Source: a virus
Virus record (IMG/VR): IMGVR_UViG_3300034521_000087
Span: 1 to 41,795 of that record
Reading direction: 5' to 3' (one strand)
DNA length: 41,795 nt
In this document: positions 20,292 to 25,574 of the stretch, one piece after another
How the letters are laid out: the number at the start of each line of letters is the position of its first letter
How positions within the stretch are numbered: the first letter of the stretch is position 1
Position numbers and translations under genes: made by a program
Notes under the pieces: generated by a model
Seen by the model: only the letters and a program-made list of their open reading frames with translations
What the model was told of the DNA's origin: nothing
The model's database searches: none

Positions 20292-21710
20292 ATGACCACT
20301 ATTACCAGAGAACGCCTGACAAAAATTCTGATTGAGACGATGTCGTTAATCAAAGAACGTTCTTCCCGTACTGGCGACGCGTCCGGAATAAGCACGGAAG
20401 TAAACGCCTCGCTTTTTGCTGAAGTTACACGCATGGCGCTGGCATCGCTTACCGCAAAGCCCGTTCTTTACGCAGCAGAGGAAACGCTTGCTTACGCTAA
20501 TATGGGTGAGCTTCACCTTACCTGTTTATCAGAGCCAATGGGTGACGCGGTTATTCCCCTATACACTACCCCTCCAGTGCAGAGAACGCCGGATATGACT
20601 GACTTCCGTCCCTGCCCGTTCTGCAACTCACCAGTGAAATGGTGCGGAGAAAACAGCGTGGATCCAGAAGATGACCACGCTTGCCACCACATCCAGTGTA
20701 CAAACCCTGAATGCGGCGCTGATTTTGATTTCACCAATACCGGCGACGACCTGCTTCCTGATGATCCCGCTATTCTTGACGCAATGACAACCACTGAGCT
20801 TCTGCAGCCGCTACGCGCAATATGTAAAAGCAGGTTTAATCGTCGCACCACCACGCCTGCGCCGGTAGTGCATCAGGAACCAATCGCATGGCTTAACGAT
20901 GCGTATTTAGCCAGAGGAGTGGTTGACGGAGAAGCAGGTAATGAAGATGCAGGTCCAGGGTATATCCCTGTTTATCGTGAACCTCTCCCACTCAAATCGC
21001 CGGTATCAGTGCCTGATGAAATGACGTTCGAGGAGGTCTCGCACCCTCACAATTTTGATTGCAATACACAATACGCGTACCAGCAGGGCTGGAACGCCTG
21101 CCGCGCCGCCCTGTTTCAGGGCAGCCAACCTGTAAGTTATCGTGATGAGTTGCCAGAAGAAAAAGGCGCATCGCTCCAACTGCGTAATTTAATCCGGCAG
21201 CGCCATGCTGAATGGTCTGATGCCACGTTCGGAAATGTTGGCCCTGTTGGTCCACTTAAGCACCTGTCGAAAGAGGCGCTGGAAGCCGCTGCCGAACCTG
21301 ACGATCTCAGCGAGTGGGCTGATATGCAGTTACTGTTATGGGACGCCCAGCGGCGCGCCGGTATCAGTGACGGTGAAATCACAGCGGCAATGGAAGAAAA
21401 GCTGCAGGTGAACATGGCGCGCCAGTGGCCTGAGCCGAAGGACGGTGAACCACGACTACACATTAAGGAAGCTGGCAACTCTCCGGTGATTCCGGATAGT
21501 TCGGAGGATACAAAGCGCCTTAACTGGCTTGATGCGCAAAACAAGAGGCTGAATGAGTATTACGGAACATCGTACGGTTGGAAATTTGACGCGAATTTCC
21601 AGAGGAACGCAATGATGCTCAATGACAGCAATTATCCGGTTATGACAGTTCGCCAAGCTATTGATCAGGCTATCGCATCAGCTCCGCAGCAGGAGGTAAA
21701 TCGTGAATAA
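20292..21710 (+). CDS. mosaic early protein with zinc knuckle and DUF550 (dATP/dGTP pyrophosphohydrolase-like) domain
   Basis: A 472-residue protein apparently assembled from several phage modules. Residues 1-95 are an accessory N-terminal domain (VLYAAEETLAYANMGE). About 104-150 is a zinc-ribbon of restriction-alleviation (Lar) type (CPFCNSPVKWCG...CTNPECGADF). About 195-280 is a second accessory segment. About 295-400 is DUF550 (LIRQRHAEWSDATFGNVGPVGPLKHLSKEALEA...DLSEWADMQLLLWDAQRRAG). A last segment (TKRLNWLDAQNKRLNEYYG) is another Ea-type module. The DUF550 part is related to MazG-like dATP/dGTP pyrophosphohydrolases; activity is inferred. Confidence 0.8.
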   Translation: MTTITRERLTKILIETMSLIKERSSRTGDASGISTEVNASLFAEVTRMALASLTAKPVLYAAEETLAYANMGELHLTCLSEPMGDAVIPLYTTPPVQRTPDMTDFRPCPFCNSPVKWCGENSVDPEDDHACHHIQCTNPECGADFDFTNTGDDLLPDDPAILDAMTTTELLQPLRAICKSRFNRRTTTPAPVVHQEPIAWLNDAYLARGVVDGEAGNEDAGPGYIPVYREPLPLKSPVSVPDEMTFEEVSHPHNFDCNTQYAYQQGWNACRAALFQGSQPVSYRDELPEEKGASLQLRNLIRQRHAEWSDATFGNVGPVGPLKHLSKEALEAAAEPDDLSEWADMQLLLWDAQRRAGISDGEITAAMEEKLQVNMARQWPEPKDGEPRLHIKEAGNSPVIPDSSEDTKRLNWLDAQNKRLNEYYGTSYGWKFDANFQRNAMMLNDSNYPVMTVRQAIDQAIASAPQQEVNRE

Positions 21711-22246: not shown

Positions 22247-23425
22247 ATGGCGGCAAGGCCAAGAAAAAAAGAATACCGACATCTGCCGGACTATCTGGTA
22301 TTTGATAAAGATCGAGGTGTTTATAAATTCACACTTATTACCGGGAAGAAGAAAAATATAGGTAAGGATCGGGCCATAGCAATAGCTATCGCCAGAGAGT
22401 ACAACCTGAGAATGAGACCTGAGCTTTCCCCGTCGGTTGATAATCTCATTAGAGAATCTGGTGGGGCTACTGGAGAAGCCAAACCATTTGCTGAACATGT
22501 GGATCACATAATGGAACGTGCTATTGAGGACGAGCGCCCTTCTCAGAGCACCCTAGATGACTGGAATAATGACGCACTACGCGTAAAAGAGTTTTTCGTG
22601 AATGTTCCTGCCTGCGATATCGAGTTGGAGCATGTTAACGCATACATCAATCAATACCATGCCGGCGCGTCTGCGAACGTGCAAAACAGAAAAGTCAGCT
22701 TCCTTAAAAAGCTGTTTTCGTATGCGGTCGATGAATCCCTGATGCTCGATAATCCGGCAACCCGGAAGAAAATGCGCAGGACCGAAGAGAAGAAAAGACA
22801 ACGCCTGTCTCTCGATCATTTCATGGCTATCCGGCGCGCTGCAGCACCATGGTTAAGAACGGCAATGGACCTGGCTCTACAGACGACACATGCGCGCCTC
22901 GAAGTATCGAGGATCCGTTATTCAATTCGCGAACCCAAAAACGGTGTATGTGGTTGTGTCTGGCTCGAACAAGCAGAGAATGGCATACATGGAACGCTTT
23001 ACATCCATCGTCAAAAGGTACAAAAGAAGGAAGCCTCGCACGTTGCGATTCCAATTGGGGATGAGCTAAAGCGTATAATTGATGCAAGTAGGGATAACGT
23101 AGCCAGTCCATTTGTTGTTCACAGGATTCCGGATCGGCATGTTAAACGCAGTAAAGAAGTTTCACTCCCGACTCAAGTTGCTCCTGACTATCTTAGTCGC
23201 TCATTCTCCTCGTTACGCGATGAGCTTGGACTGTATGATAATCTTACGATGGACGAACGCCCTACTTTTCACGAGATCAGAGCACTTGCGGCACATTTGT
23301 TTAATAACCAAGGAATCGACCCTCAAGGCAGGATGGCCCACAGTGATGCAAAATCAACGAAGATTTATACCAGCAACCACATCGACTGGGTGATTGTTCC
23401 TCATGGAGAGATAAAAACAGGTTGA
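22247..23425 (+). CDS. int: tyrosine-recombinase integrase
   Basis: A 392-residue recombinase that should act at the tRNA-Pro attP at 24948. An N-terminal arm-binding domain (RKKEYRHLPDYLVFDKDRGVYKFTLITGKKKNIG), a core-binding SAM-like domain (about 78-175), and the catalytic domain are visible. Catalytic residues: R217 (HARLEVSRIRY), probable Lys near 257-261, H342-x-x-R345 (FHEIRALA), H365 (MAHSD) and Y374 (KIYTS). Unusually, attP lies 1.5 kb downstream, beyond an accessory unit. Confidence 0.95.
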   Translation: MAARPRKKEYRHLPDYLVFDKDRGVYKFTLITGKKKNIGKDRAIAIAIAREYNLRMRPELSPSVDNLIRESGGATGEAKPFAEHVDHIMERAIEDERPSQSTLDDWNNDALRVKEFFVNVPACDIELEHVNAYINQYHAGASANVQNRKVSFLKKLFSYAVDESLMLDNPATRKKMRRTEEKKRQRLSLDHFMAIRRAAAPWLRTAMDLALQTTHARLEVSRIRYSIREPKNGVCGCVWLEQAENGIHGTLYIHRQKVQKKEASHVAIPIGDELKRIIDASRDNVASPFVVHRIPDRHVKRSKEVSLPTQVAPDYLSRSFSSLRDELGLYDNLTMDERPTFHEIRALAAHLFNNQGIDPQGRMAHSDAKSTKIYTSNHIDWVIVPHGEIKTG

Positions 23426-23704
23426 AAACATTAGTTTTTTATGGATTGTCAGGCAGAAGATTCTTGTTGGCACCTTGATAAATTCAAGGGCTGGAACTAT
23501 TACTGTAGTAGGAAATACTTTACGGGATATGACAAATCAAACATAACTCATTGTTTTATTTGAAAATGCCATTTCTATCCCACTAAAGAATTTAATAGAA
23601 TTTTATTGTCAAGGTGACATCACTCTTGTTAGTATGCAGGCAACAAGTGATTTCACAACAAAATGATCTATCCCACACAGTAGGTACAACAAGGAGAGGC
23701 TTAT

Positions 23705-23740
23705 ATGAAAAACTTCGAAATCGGTTACGGTGAAGGTTAA
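23705..23740 (+). CDS. 11-codon leader-type ORF before a terminator
   Basis: ATG 23705 preceded by AAGGAG at 8 bases; reads MKNFEIGYGEG then TAA. An intrinsic terminator begins 21 bases later and the DUF4760-like gene 71 bases later. A possible promoter is upstream (TTGTCA near 23608, TAGTAT 18 bases on). The remaining 280 bases between int and here hold no gene. The arrangement is that of a leader peptide controlling the downstream gene; translation is unproven. Confidence 0.45.
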   Translation: MKNFEIGYGEG

Positions 23741-23761
23741 GTCTTAATAAGCATTGAACTA

Positions 23762-23788
23762 AACTCCTCATTCTGAGGAGTTTTTTTT
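23762..23788 (+). terminator. strong intrinsic terminator / attenuator
   Basis: AACTCCTCA (ttc) TGAGGAGTT followed by eight T. It ends 23 bases before the DUF4760-like start codon, leaving no room for a separate promoter, so it should attenuate that gene. Confidence 0.88.
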
Positions 23789-23811
23789 CATCCAGTAGAA
23801 GGGTTTTCGGA

Positions 23812-24816
23812 ATGTACCGATGGATAAAAAGTAAAACGAGAATATTTCTGGGTGTGCTCGTTGGCATACTTCTAAGTCTGGTTGTCACTCGATTTTTATT
23901 AACTTTCAATGCAGTAGAGACTGCAGAGTGGTTCTATACAGCTTTCGATGCGGGGCTGATGACGACTTTCGCGACATTCTTCTCTTTGTATGGTGTCTAT
24001 AAGATAAGCAACAAATTCCCAGACACTAATGCACTCCTACCACTTTTTGGAATTGTTATCTGGAGCTTAATACTGCTCGCCTACTACGTGCTTCGATACA
24101 ATGATGCTTACCAAACAGCGCTATCAATAATTGTCGCAGGATCGATTGCCGGTATGGGGTGGTGGATCCAGTTCATTACCTCTGCAGCGAGTGATAGACG
24201 GAAACATACACTGAATGTAGTTTTGAGTACCCGCACTTGTACCGAGTATCAGACACATCTGCGCAATTTTACCCATCTTTGGCGGGGCAACCGCCATGCC
24301 CCAAAAGAGCTCTGCCTTTGGAGAGATGACCCTGATAACCCTAAATTCAAAGATGCAAAAGTCCCCGATGAGGTTGTTAATGCTATCAATGGCCTTCTCT
24401 ACATACTGAACTTTTACGAGTTTTTAGCCCAGGGTATTAAAGCTAATGATTTGGATGACAAGCTCTTAAGAGAATGTTTTTGTGGCTTTTTAGAAGGTTT
24501 GGAGAGAAAAGCTTATTTCATTCTTTCTGAAGCTCAAAAGAGAGACGAGAGATATTTTGAAGGGATTATTTTCCTATGTAAGCGCTGGAACAATGAGAAG
24601 TCATTAGTCGAAAAGCATCGACACTCAGCTCCACCAGCGGATATAGGTACTTGCTATCCTTCACAAGATGAAGTGATGAAAATGCTCGGTATGCAGCTAA
24701 AACCAGAATCGAAACCTAAGAGAAGAAGAAAAAGGCGCGGAGCGGTATCAACGTCCACCCCAGCAGCGAATGTATCAGAACTCAATCCTGAAACAAGTGC
24801 TGTATCTGGCACTTAA
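23812..24816 (+). CDS. four-helix membrane protein resembling DUF4760, moron beside attP
   Basis: A 334-residue protein. Four predicted transmembrane helices (about 11-32, 43-63, 75-95, 102-124) are followed by a cytoplasmic domain. There SDRRKHTLNVVLSTR and LLYILNFYEFLAQGIKANDLDDKLLRECF resemble the DUF4760 family, which I recognise only loosely. The tail is very basic (KPKRRRKRRG, 302-311). It sits between int and attP, so in the lysogen it lies at the prophage edge, a common place for lysogenic-conversion or exclusion genes. Weak Shine-Dalgarno sequence. Function unknown. Confidence 0.7.
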   Translation: MYRWIKSKTRIFLGVLVGILLSLVVTRFLLTFNAVETAEWFYTAFDAGLMTTFATFFSLYGVYKISNKFPDTNALLPLFGIVIWSLILLAYYVLRYNDAYQTALSIIVAGSIAGMGWWIQFITSAASDRRKHTLNVVLSTRTCTEYQTHLRNFTHLWRGNRHAPKELCLWRDDPDNPKFKDAKVPDEVVNAINGLLYILNFYEFLAQGIKANDLDDKLLRECFCGFLEGLERKAYFILSEAQKRDERYFEGIIFLCKRWNNEKSLVEKHRHSAPPADIGTCYPSQDEVMKMLGMQLKPESKPKRRRKRRGAVSTSTPAANVSELNPETSAVSGT

Positions 24817-24894: not shown

Positions 24895-24947
24895 TCAAAT
24901 GACCTATAAGCCAAACAGGGCGCTGCTTACAACTAATTAGTGAAGGT

Positions 24948-24995
24948 GTCATGGGGTGTCGGGGGTCGGAGGTTCAAATCCTCTCGTGCCGACCA
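24948..24995 (+). other. attP: attP core identical to 3' half of tRNA-Pro(GGG)
   Basis: Forty-eight bases from the anticodon stem (gtcATGGGGTgtcgg) through the T arm (GGAGGTTCAAATCCTC) to the acceptor end and CCA (TCGTGCCGACCA). From memory this equals the 3' part of E. coli proL. There is no 5' half, so it is not a functional tRNA gene here. Integration at proL would restore the tRNA. An intrinsic terminator follows. Confidence 0.88.
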
Positions 24996-25008
24996 AAATA
25001 CTCCTTAA

Positions 25009-25037: not shown

Positions 25038-25102
25038 TGCCTGTTTTTTATACGGGGTATTGTTGGGGTAAAACCGGGGAATTATCCCGACGCGAATTAA
25101 TG

Positions 25103-25492
25103 TCAGATCACCGGACAATCATCGAACTCACCTGAGCGCGCATCGTTGATGATGTAGGTGATCACCCCAAATACTGGCGAAGTAACATTGTAGTCACCCG
25201 TTGAGTCAGGTATCTCTTCGCGCTTACCGTTCTCCAGATTCACCAGGTGAGGTCTTGGGTGCACGCGGAAGCGTTTTATCCTTAACTCACCATCCAACCT
25301 ACAGATGAGCAGAGAACCATCGCAAGGTTTCAGGGAACTATCTACTACCAACAAAGCACCATTCATGATGCCGTCTCTCCAGTATGTCTGCCCTGCTCTC
25401 ATGAAGTATGTGGCTGATGGATGCTCAATAAATTTCTCGTCTAGCGATATGTGGCGCTCAACGTAGTCCGCTGCCGGAGAAGGGAAGCCCAT
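25103..25492 (-). CDS. UmuD'-like protein lacking the cleavable arm and the catalytic serine
   Basis: A 129-residue protein whose start MGFPSPAADYVE corresponds to the first residues of processed UmuD' (after the Cys24-Gly25 cleavage site), as in P1 HumD. The body aligns with UmuD (HPSATYF, GALLVVDSSL, DGELRIKRFRV, VFGVITYII). At the UmuD Ser60 position (GDSM) it reads GQTY, so the Ser nucleophile is replaced, probably by Thr; the Lys of IKRF remains. It could pair with host UmuC or UmuD to alter translesion synthesis. GAGGT before ATG 25492. Divergent from dinI under two LexA boxes. Confidence 0.85.
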   Translation of the reverse strand: MGFPSPAADYVERHISLDEKFIEHPSATYFMRAGQTYWRDGIMNGALLVVDSSLKPCDGSLLICRLDGELRIKRFRVHPRPHLVNLENGKREEIPDSTGDYNVTSPVFGVITYIINDARSGEFDDCPVI

Positions 25493-25516
25493 AGTTACCT
25501 CTATCTACTATTGACA

Positions 25517-25556
25517 CTGGATAAAAACACAGTATATATACTGTATATCCAACCAG
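25517..25556. promoter_or_regulatory. two LexA boxes between the umuD'-like and dinI-like genes
   Basis: CTG-GATAAAAACA-CAG (25517-25532) and CTG-TATATCCAAC-CAG (25541-25556, flanked TA...TA as in the full consensus). They lie between divergent starts at 25492 and 25575 and should place both genes under SOS control. Confidence 0.85.
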
Positions 25557-25574
25557 TAAAGGGAGAAGGTAAAA

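Follow-up and report, generated by a model that had tools for sequence, protein, structure and literature searches.

In type III toxin-antitoxin systems, a terminator separates the antidote from the toxin that follows it, and a pseudo-ToxI allows phage TE to evade ToxIN (PMC5086642). AbiF has the order antidote-terminator-effector as well (PMC12373285). With the type III systems ToxIN and AbiQ and with AbiF, the locus described here shares a small upstream gene for a putative antidote, a Rho-independent terminator that limits the effector, carriage by phages or plasmids, and probable phage escape by antidote mimics (PMC5086642, PMC12373285). However, the putative antidote is a peptide of about 9-17 residues and not an RNA, the proposed effector is a DUF4760 membrane protein and not ToxN or AbiF, and multi-tag peptide arrays are present in lytic phages. 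The type II system RnlAB with its phage mimic, Dmd of T4, is similar in having a proteinaceous antidote and a phage-encoded substitute, but the putative antidote here has about 11 residues with a tag of 5-6 residues, a terminator lies between the genes, the effector is a membrane protein and several tags are joined in arrays. Leader-peptide attenuators such as trp and tna share the succession of tiny ORF, intrinsic terminator and regulated gene; in contrast to them, the DUF4760 unit has neither a conserved antiterminator nor a regulatory codon run, and its leader peptide also occurs in other phages that do not carry the gene.

The data reported here suggest that the unit is a hitherto undescribed phage-defence module and that its putative antidote peptide has been copied by other phages. 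In agreement with the earlier note, which had named it as the best candidate for an undescribed system, no description of the leader-terminator unit or of the tag code was found in the open-access papers searched, none of which mentions the tags in any relevant sense.

Layout and conservation of the unit

The window, i.e. the whole stretch of 41,795 nt that was analyzed (IMGVR_UViG_3300034521_000087), contains the unit downstream of an integrase gene (Table 1). The earlier note had described an 11-codon leader ORF with a ribosome-binding site, a terminator 23 bases before the next gene, a four-helix DUF4760-like membrane protein encoded by that gene, and the position of all three between int and attP; coordinates, distances and family hold, as does the position, attP being probable.

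Table 1. Features of the unit and its surroundings in the window
Feature	Position	Strand	Basis
Tyrosine integrase (context)	22247..23425	+	profile/sequence match
Candidate sigma-70 promoter of the unit, TTGTCA-18-TAGTAT, extended -10 (TG)	23606..23635	+	9/12; site count in region not above chance
Ribosome-binding site of tiny ORF, AAGGAGAGG	23691..23699	+	sequence
Tiny ORF, MKNFEIGYGEG, 11 aa, with IGYGEG tag as C-terminus before the stop codon	23705..23740	+	sequence
Intrinsic terminator, AAACTCCTCA-TTC-TGAGGAGTTT and T run, in gap between tiny ORF and membrane gene	23761..23788	+	sequence
Ribosome-binding site of membrane gene, AGAAGGG	23797..23803	+	sequence
DUF4760 (PF15956) membrane protein, 334 aa, proposed effector	23812..24816	+	Pfam, AF2
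Probable attP core, 53 bp	24946..24998	+	identity to E. coli genomes

The terminator stem (23761-23783) has 10 perfect pairs and a 3-nt loop, the T run extends to 23788, and the membrane gene starts 23 nt past it; of the two ribosome-binding sites in the unit, the one in front of this gene is the weaker. At the place corresponding to the candidate promoter, TTGtcA-17/18-TAnnAT boxes are seen by eye in L002, L003, L006 and L008. An 11-nt inverted repeat, GTGACATCACT / AGTGATTTCAC, at 23614-23656 straddles the candidate -10 box and raises the question of whether it is an operator or an integrase arm site. A sequence identical to the probable attP core is present in 5375 of the 5426 E. coli genomes searched; we take it to be the 3'-terminal part of a tRNA-Pro gene that serves as attP, and no feature is annotated under the matches listed. 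Elsewhere in the window, a 472-aa ORF (20292-21710) fuses Lar-like restriction-alleviation and dATP/dGTP pyrophosphohydrolase domains, and an S24-peptidase-like gene lies on the minus strand (25100-25560), preceded by ACAGTATATATACTGT, a palindrome that may be a LexA box.

The 334-aa product passes the gathering score of PF15956/DUF4760 (58.2 bits versus a cut-off of 25, E 1.4e-15), a family that has no recorded function; among the open-access papers searched, one names DUF4760, a single time, and no functional account of the family was found. The AF2 model (pLDDT 80.6, pTM 0.61) has four long helices at the N-terminus and, after them, a further helical domain. Sequence and fold searches of the PDB and a search of BFVD gave no credible match, and none of the families in the PADLOC-DB 2.0.0 models matched in the window. 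As opposed to a ToxN-like endoribonuclease, the protein is a helical membrane protein with no PDB match and, because its fold matches nothing solved, its toxicity is a guess. Among its relatives, the start of the phage-plasmid copy in L058 (3893-3965) is frameshifted relative to L107 and L142, and this copy may be truncated; L273 offers a natural leader-plus-gene reading.

E. coli chromosomes, plasmids, one annotated phage of Pseudomonas and contigs of IMG/VR served as sources of DUF4760 relatives. A unit was defined as an ATG ORF of 7-20 codons that has a ribosome-binding site and is followed, 3-60 nt after its stop, by an intrinsic terminator, the end of which is at most 60 nt from the gene. 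Such a unit is present at 24 of 26 DUF4760 loci, reaching about 20% protein identity, compared to none of 877 control ORFs (ORFs from the same contigs, non-redundant and 150 aa or longer, called in six frames and hence not all genes) and none of 1560 dinucleotide shuffles; because the rule was drawn up after the first examples had been seen, the evidence lies in this contrast and not in the exact rate. The arrangement of tiny ORF, terminator and DUF4760 gene is not due to chance, and the three elements, which the earlier note had taken as one unit, are conserved together; nor do the homologues always lack the leader, a possibility that it had raised against itself. The two loci with no detectable unit, L146 and L148, hold the most remote DUF4760 relatives of the 26. 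In the GFGEG clade (L057:4565-4625, L060:3215-3270), a long 5' leader with the inverted repeat GCACAGGGATA ... TATCCTGTGC lies upstream of the tiny ORF.

Leader peptide tags and the proposed attenuation in cis

The leaders differ in their N-terminal part, which drifts, while the C-terminal tag is retained and freely uses synonymous codons. The leaders include MKNFEIGYGEG (in the window), MRNLEIGYGEG, MKTFYIGYGEG, MMKHTTNFELLIGYGEG, MKNTLTVGFGEG, MATKNTLVRVGFGEG, MLNTFMSGFGEG, MLNVGVGEG, MKLETGVGAG, MGTGAPAMILSIGCEE, MVITQSGCFESGCFE and MTYKFNSGSNESGCNE; the tag is IGYGEG in the window and VGFGEG, GVGEG or SGCxE in other DUF4760 clades. The pN/pS ratio over the last five sense codons is 0.12, and GYGEG and GFGEG have 33 and 30 DNA spellings, respectively. 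Thus, it is the peptide that has been preserved. When the seven tag classes are placed on a tree built from 32 DUF4760 proteins, six changes suffice, the minimum, compared to a mean of 18.7 for shuffled labels (0 of 200 shuffles as low as six). This shows that tag and DUF4760 protein have travelled as pairs over great divergence, although part of the covariation may be due to the two genes being linked and inherited together.

The earlier note had read the layout as translation-coupled attenuation. Cis attenuation, by which ribosome loading or stop-codon arrest on the leader would set terminator formation and the C-terminal motif would be an arrest sequence, has several points in its favor: the gene is hardly ever found without a leader and a terminator in front of it, a tiny ORF and a terminator lie upstream of a gene as in known attenuators, and the gap between terminator and gene is too small for a promoter. 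Moreover, arrest peptides typically have a conserved C-terminus ending at the stop codon, and the conserved C-terminus of the leader resembles them. Nevertheless, we consider this explanation improbable. The five-base complementarity between AGGAG of the leader ribosome-binding site and CTCCT of the terminator is present in the window, as the earlier note had pointed out, but it is not kept across the wider family, being absent in L115, L129, L142, L145 and the DEFDGF clade, all of which retain leader and terminator. The predicted RNA fold is ordinary (z -1.5) and leaves this pairing unused; competition between the Shine-Dalgarno sequence and the terminator was, therefore, rejected as the switch. 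A long-range ATCGGT/ACCGAT complementarity between the leader and the gene start, which would speak for attenuation, is real in the clade of the window, absent beyond it and confounded with coding. No mutually exclusive antiterminator is conserved among the homologues, and the distance from the stop codon of the tiny ORF to the terminator varies from 9 to 44 nt. Together with the selection on amino acids and with tags fused in lytic-phage arrays that lack the gene (see below), these observations argue against attenuation as the mechanism, although it could still add a layer.

The order of antidote, terminator and effector and a similar transcript size would also be expected if, in the manner of type III toxin-antitoxin systems or AbiF, the neutralizing agent were the leader RNA and not the peptide. 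A Rho-independent terminator is indeed present between the two genes; however, no array of tandem nucleotide repeats is visible in 23640-23790, no conserved repeat or pseudoknot was seen, and an Rfam search gave nothing over the gathering score. Because selection acts on amino acids, and because the tags of lytic phages differ in DNA and context, an RNA antitoxin is very unlikely.

Tags shared with lytic phages

In a pattern scan of viral contigs for tags directly before a stop codon, IGYGEG was found in 43 contigs and VGFGEG in 41, counts that include redundant relatives and true DUF4760 leaders, compared to 11 for a permuted control. Chance as the source of the lytic-phage matches was rejected on the basis of this difference and, subsequently, of the arrays and shared neighbours. 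In large lytic enterobacterial phages (T5-like, Vequintavirinae, Straboviridae), small ORFs carry C-terminal strings of tags joined by short linkers. Arrays are present in Markadamsvirinae, Vequintavirinae and Slopekvirus; examples, each of which ends at the stop codon, are IIGYGEG-ISN-DEFDGF-VGFGEG in Eps7, ISN-DEFDGF-VGFGEG-ISSGCFE-DERPDL in NBEco001, DEFDGF-IGYGEG-IRQT-EDVDFF-VGFGEG-ISS-DERPDL in Ro1, IGYGEG-ITSEENWGF-VGFGEG-ITSH-DERPDL in a Klebsiella T5-like phage, and MIGYGEG-ITDR-DERPDL-LES-DEHPDF in Slopekvirus KP5. Tag sets vary between close relatives. Single tags are found at the end of a small protein in Jedunavirus, as the stand-alone ORF MVGFGEG behind TGAGGAGG in L090, and in a T4-sized phage as a run of tiny ORFs (MVETLVGFGEG, MNDEHPDF, MNDEFDGF). 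Of 39 different C-termini that end in DERPDL, 18 (one of them probably spurious) contain a second tag no more than 45 aa away, against 7 of 5513 background windows with a tag. In the array phages, the tag ORFs occur without a DUF4760 gene and far from any. Such multi-tag arrays cannot work as attenuators in cis, and action of the peptides in trans is, therefore, most likely.

A 19-base match in the major head protein of Guernseyvirinae, internal and with IGYGEG in frame, was set aside as being at chance level (E = 6). T7-like phages (L014, L017, L019 and other contigs of about 40 kb) have a 7-codon ORF, MIGYGEG, apparently between genes 7.3 and 8. A small helical protein with the sequence RLLDEMEACVxRVK, present in Vequintavirinae, Jedunavirus and T4-like phages (L038, L160, L161, L162, L167, L171), is tag-ended in some genomes and tagless in others, e.g. 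in RB18, where it adjoins uvsY.

If the array tags are copies of DUF4760 leaders, then DEFDGF and EENWGV, initially known from lytic-phage ORFs only, should also occur as leaders. A scan for DEFDGF before a stop codon led to prophage contigs with a tiny ORF (e.g. MRKLFDEFDGF), a terminator and a protein of 131-195 aa at 11 loci; four of the proteins were checked and match PF15956 with 75-124 bits (E 6.4e-21 to 5.8e-36), and the remaining proteins can be aligned to these four. Of eight matches to EENWGV, one is MTKLFRRIDEENWGV, followed by its stop codon, a terminator and a PF15956 protein (E 3.9e-24). By contrast, none of 50 matches to DERPDL, the commonest array tag, precedes a DUF4760 gene, and the rule can, therefore, not be generalized to all array tags. 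In prophage L219 (9694-9720, minus strand), a tiny ORF MADERPDL with a terminator lies between lysis-like and Rha-like genes, and Rha-like proteins in L191 and L220 end in DERPDL. MHDEFDGF followed by a hairpin with a T run, but with no adjoining DUF4760 gene, is present in L231 and 31 more viral contigs (32 matches), many of them prophage-sized.

Stand-alone tag ORFs without a neighbouring DUF4760 gene are thus numerous in prophages as well as in lytic phages and, together with DERPDL, which has no DUF4760 partner here, are what would be expected if the tags targeted another host factor or another defence, with DUF4760 being a companion gene limited by the terminator. Since each tag class precedes its own DUF4760 clade, and since the search with DEFDGF and EENWGV, both taken from lytic phages, arrived at DUF4760 genes, we regard this explanation as unlikely.

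A putative antidote peptide acting in trans

We consider it rather probable that the unit is a two-component module of a trans-acting antidote peptide and a DUF4760 effector, and that lytic phages encode mimics of the antidote. In this model, for which we infer the antidote direction, the toxicity, the trigger, the defence and the anti-defence, the tag peptide (IGYGEG in the window) would be produced at a high level from its own promoter, while the terminator would allow only a fraction of transcripts to reach the DUF4760 gene, such that the peptide would always be in excess of the membrane protein. Acting in trans, the peptide would hold its cognate DUF4760 protein silent. When an infecting phage halts host gene expression, the short-lived peptide would be exhausted and the membrane protein would become active, probably by causing membrane damage that aborts the infection. 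Lytic phages would counter with matching tags, either single or in arrays spanning several DUF4760 subfamilies.

A receptor and its ligand should show the same pairing of tags with clades, and the peptide might accordingly be an activator or sensed ligand, with the tags of lytic phages triggering DUF4760 proteins. However, because a lysogen makes its own tag beside the effector, which would keep DUF4760 on constantly, the tag is hardly an activator. Also, phages pile up tags in arrays rather than shedding them and, because lytic phages collect tags, these should help them. A benefit of the array tags to the phage fits an antidote better than a trigger, and we consider an activating peptide to be quite unlikely.

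More broadly, we give an even chance to the proposal that DUF4760 proteins are membrane effectors, each silenced by its own C-terminal peptide code (GYGEG, GFGEG, GVGEG, SGCxE, DEFDGF, EENWGV and others), and that lytic phages carry modular, polyvalent arrays as anti-defence, i.e. recombining decoys, an arrangement unlike the described types of toxin-antitoxin systems. If correct, this would provide a function for an uncharacterized protein family of prophages, phage-plasmids and temperate phages, and account for a class of tiny ORFs in T5-like, Vequintavirinae and T4-like phages. The code would, moreover, be readable, in that the tags of a lytic phage would predict which lysogens' defences fall to it.
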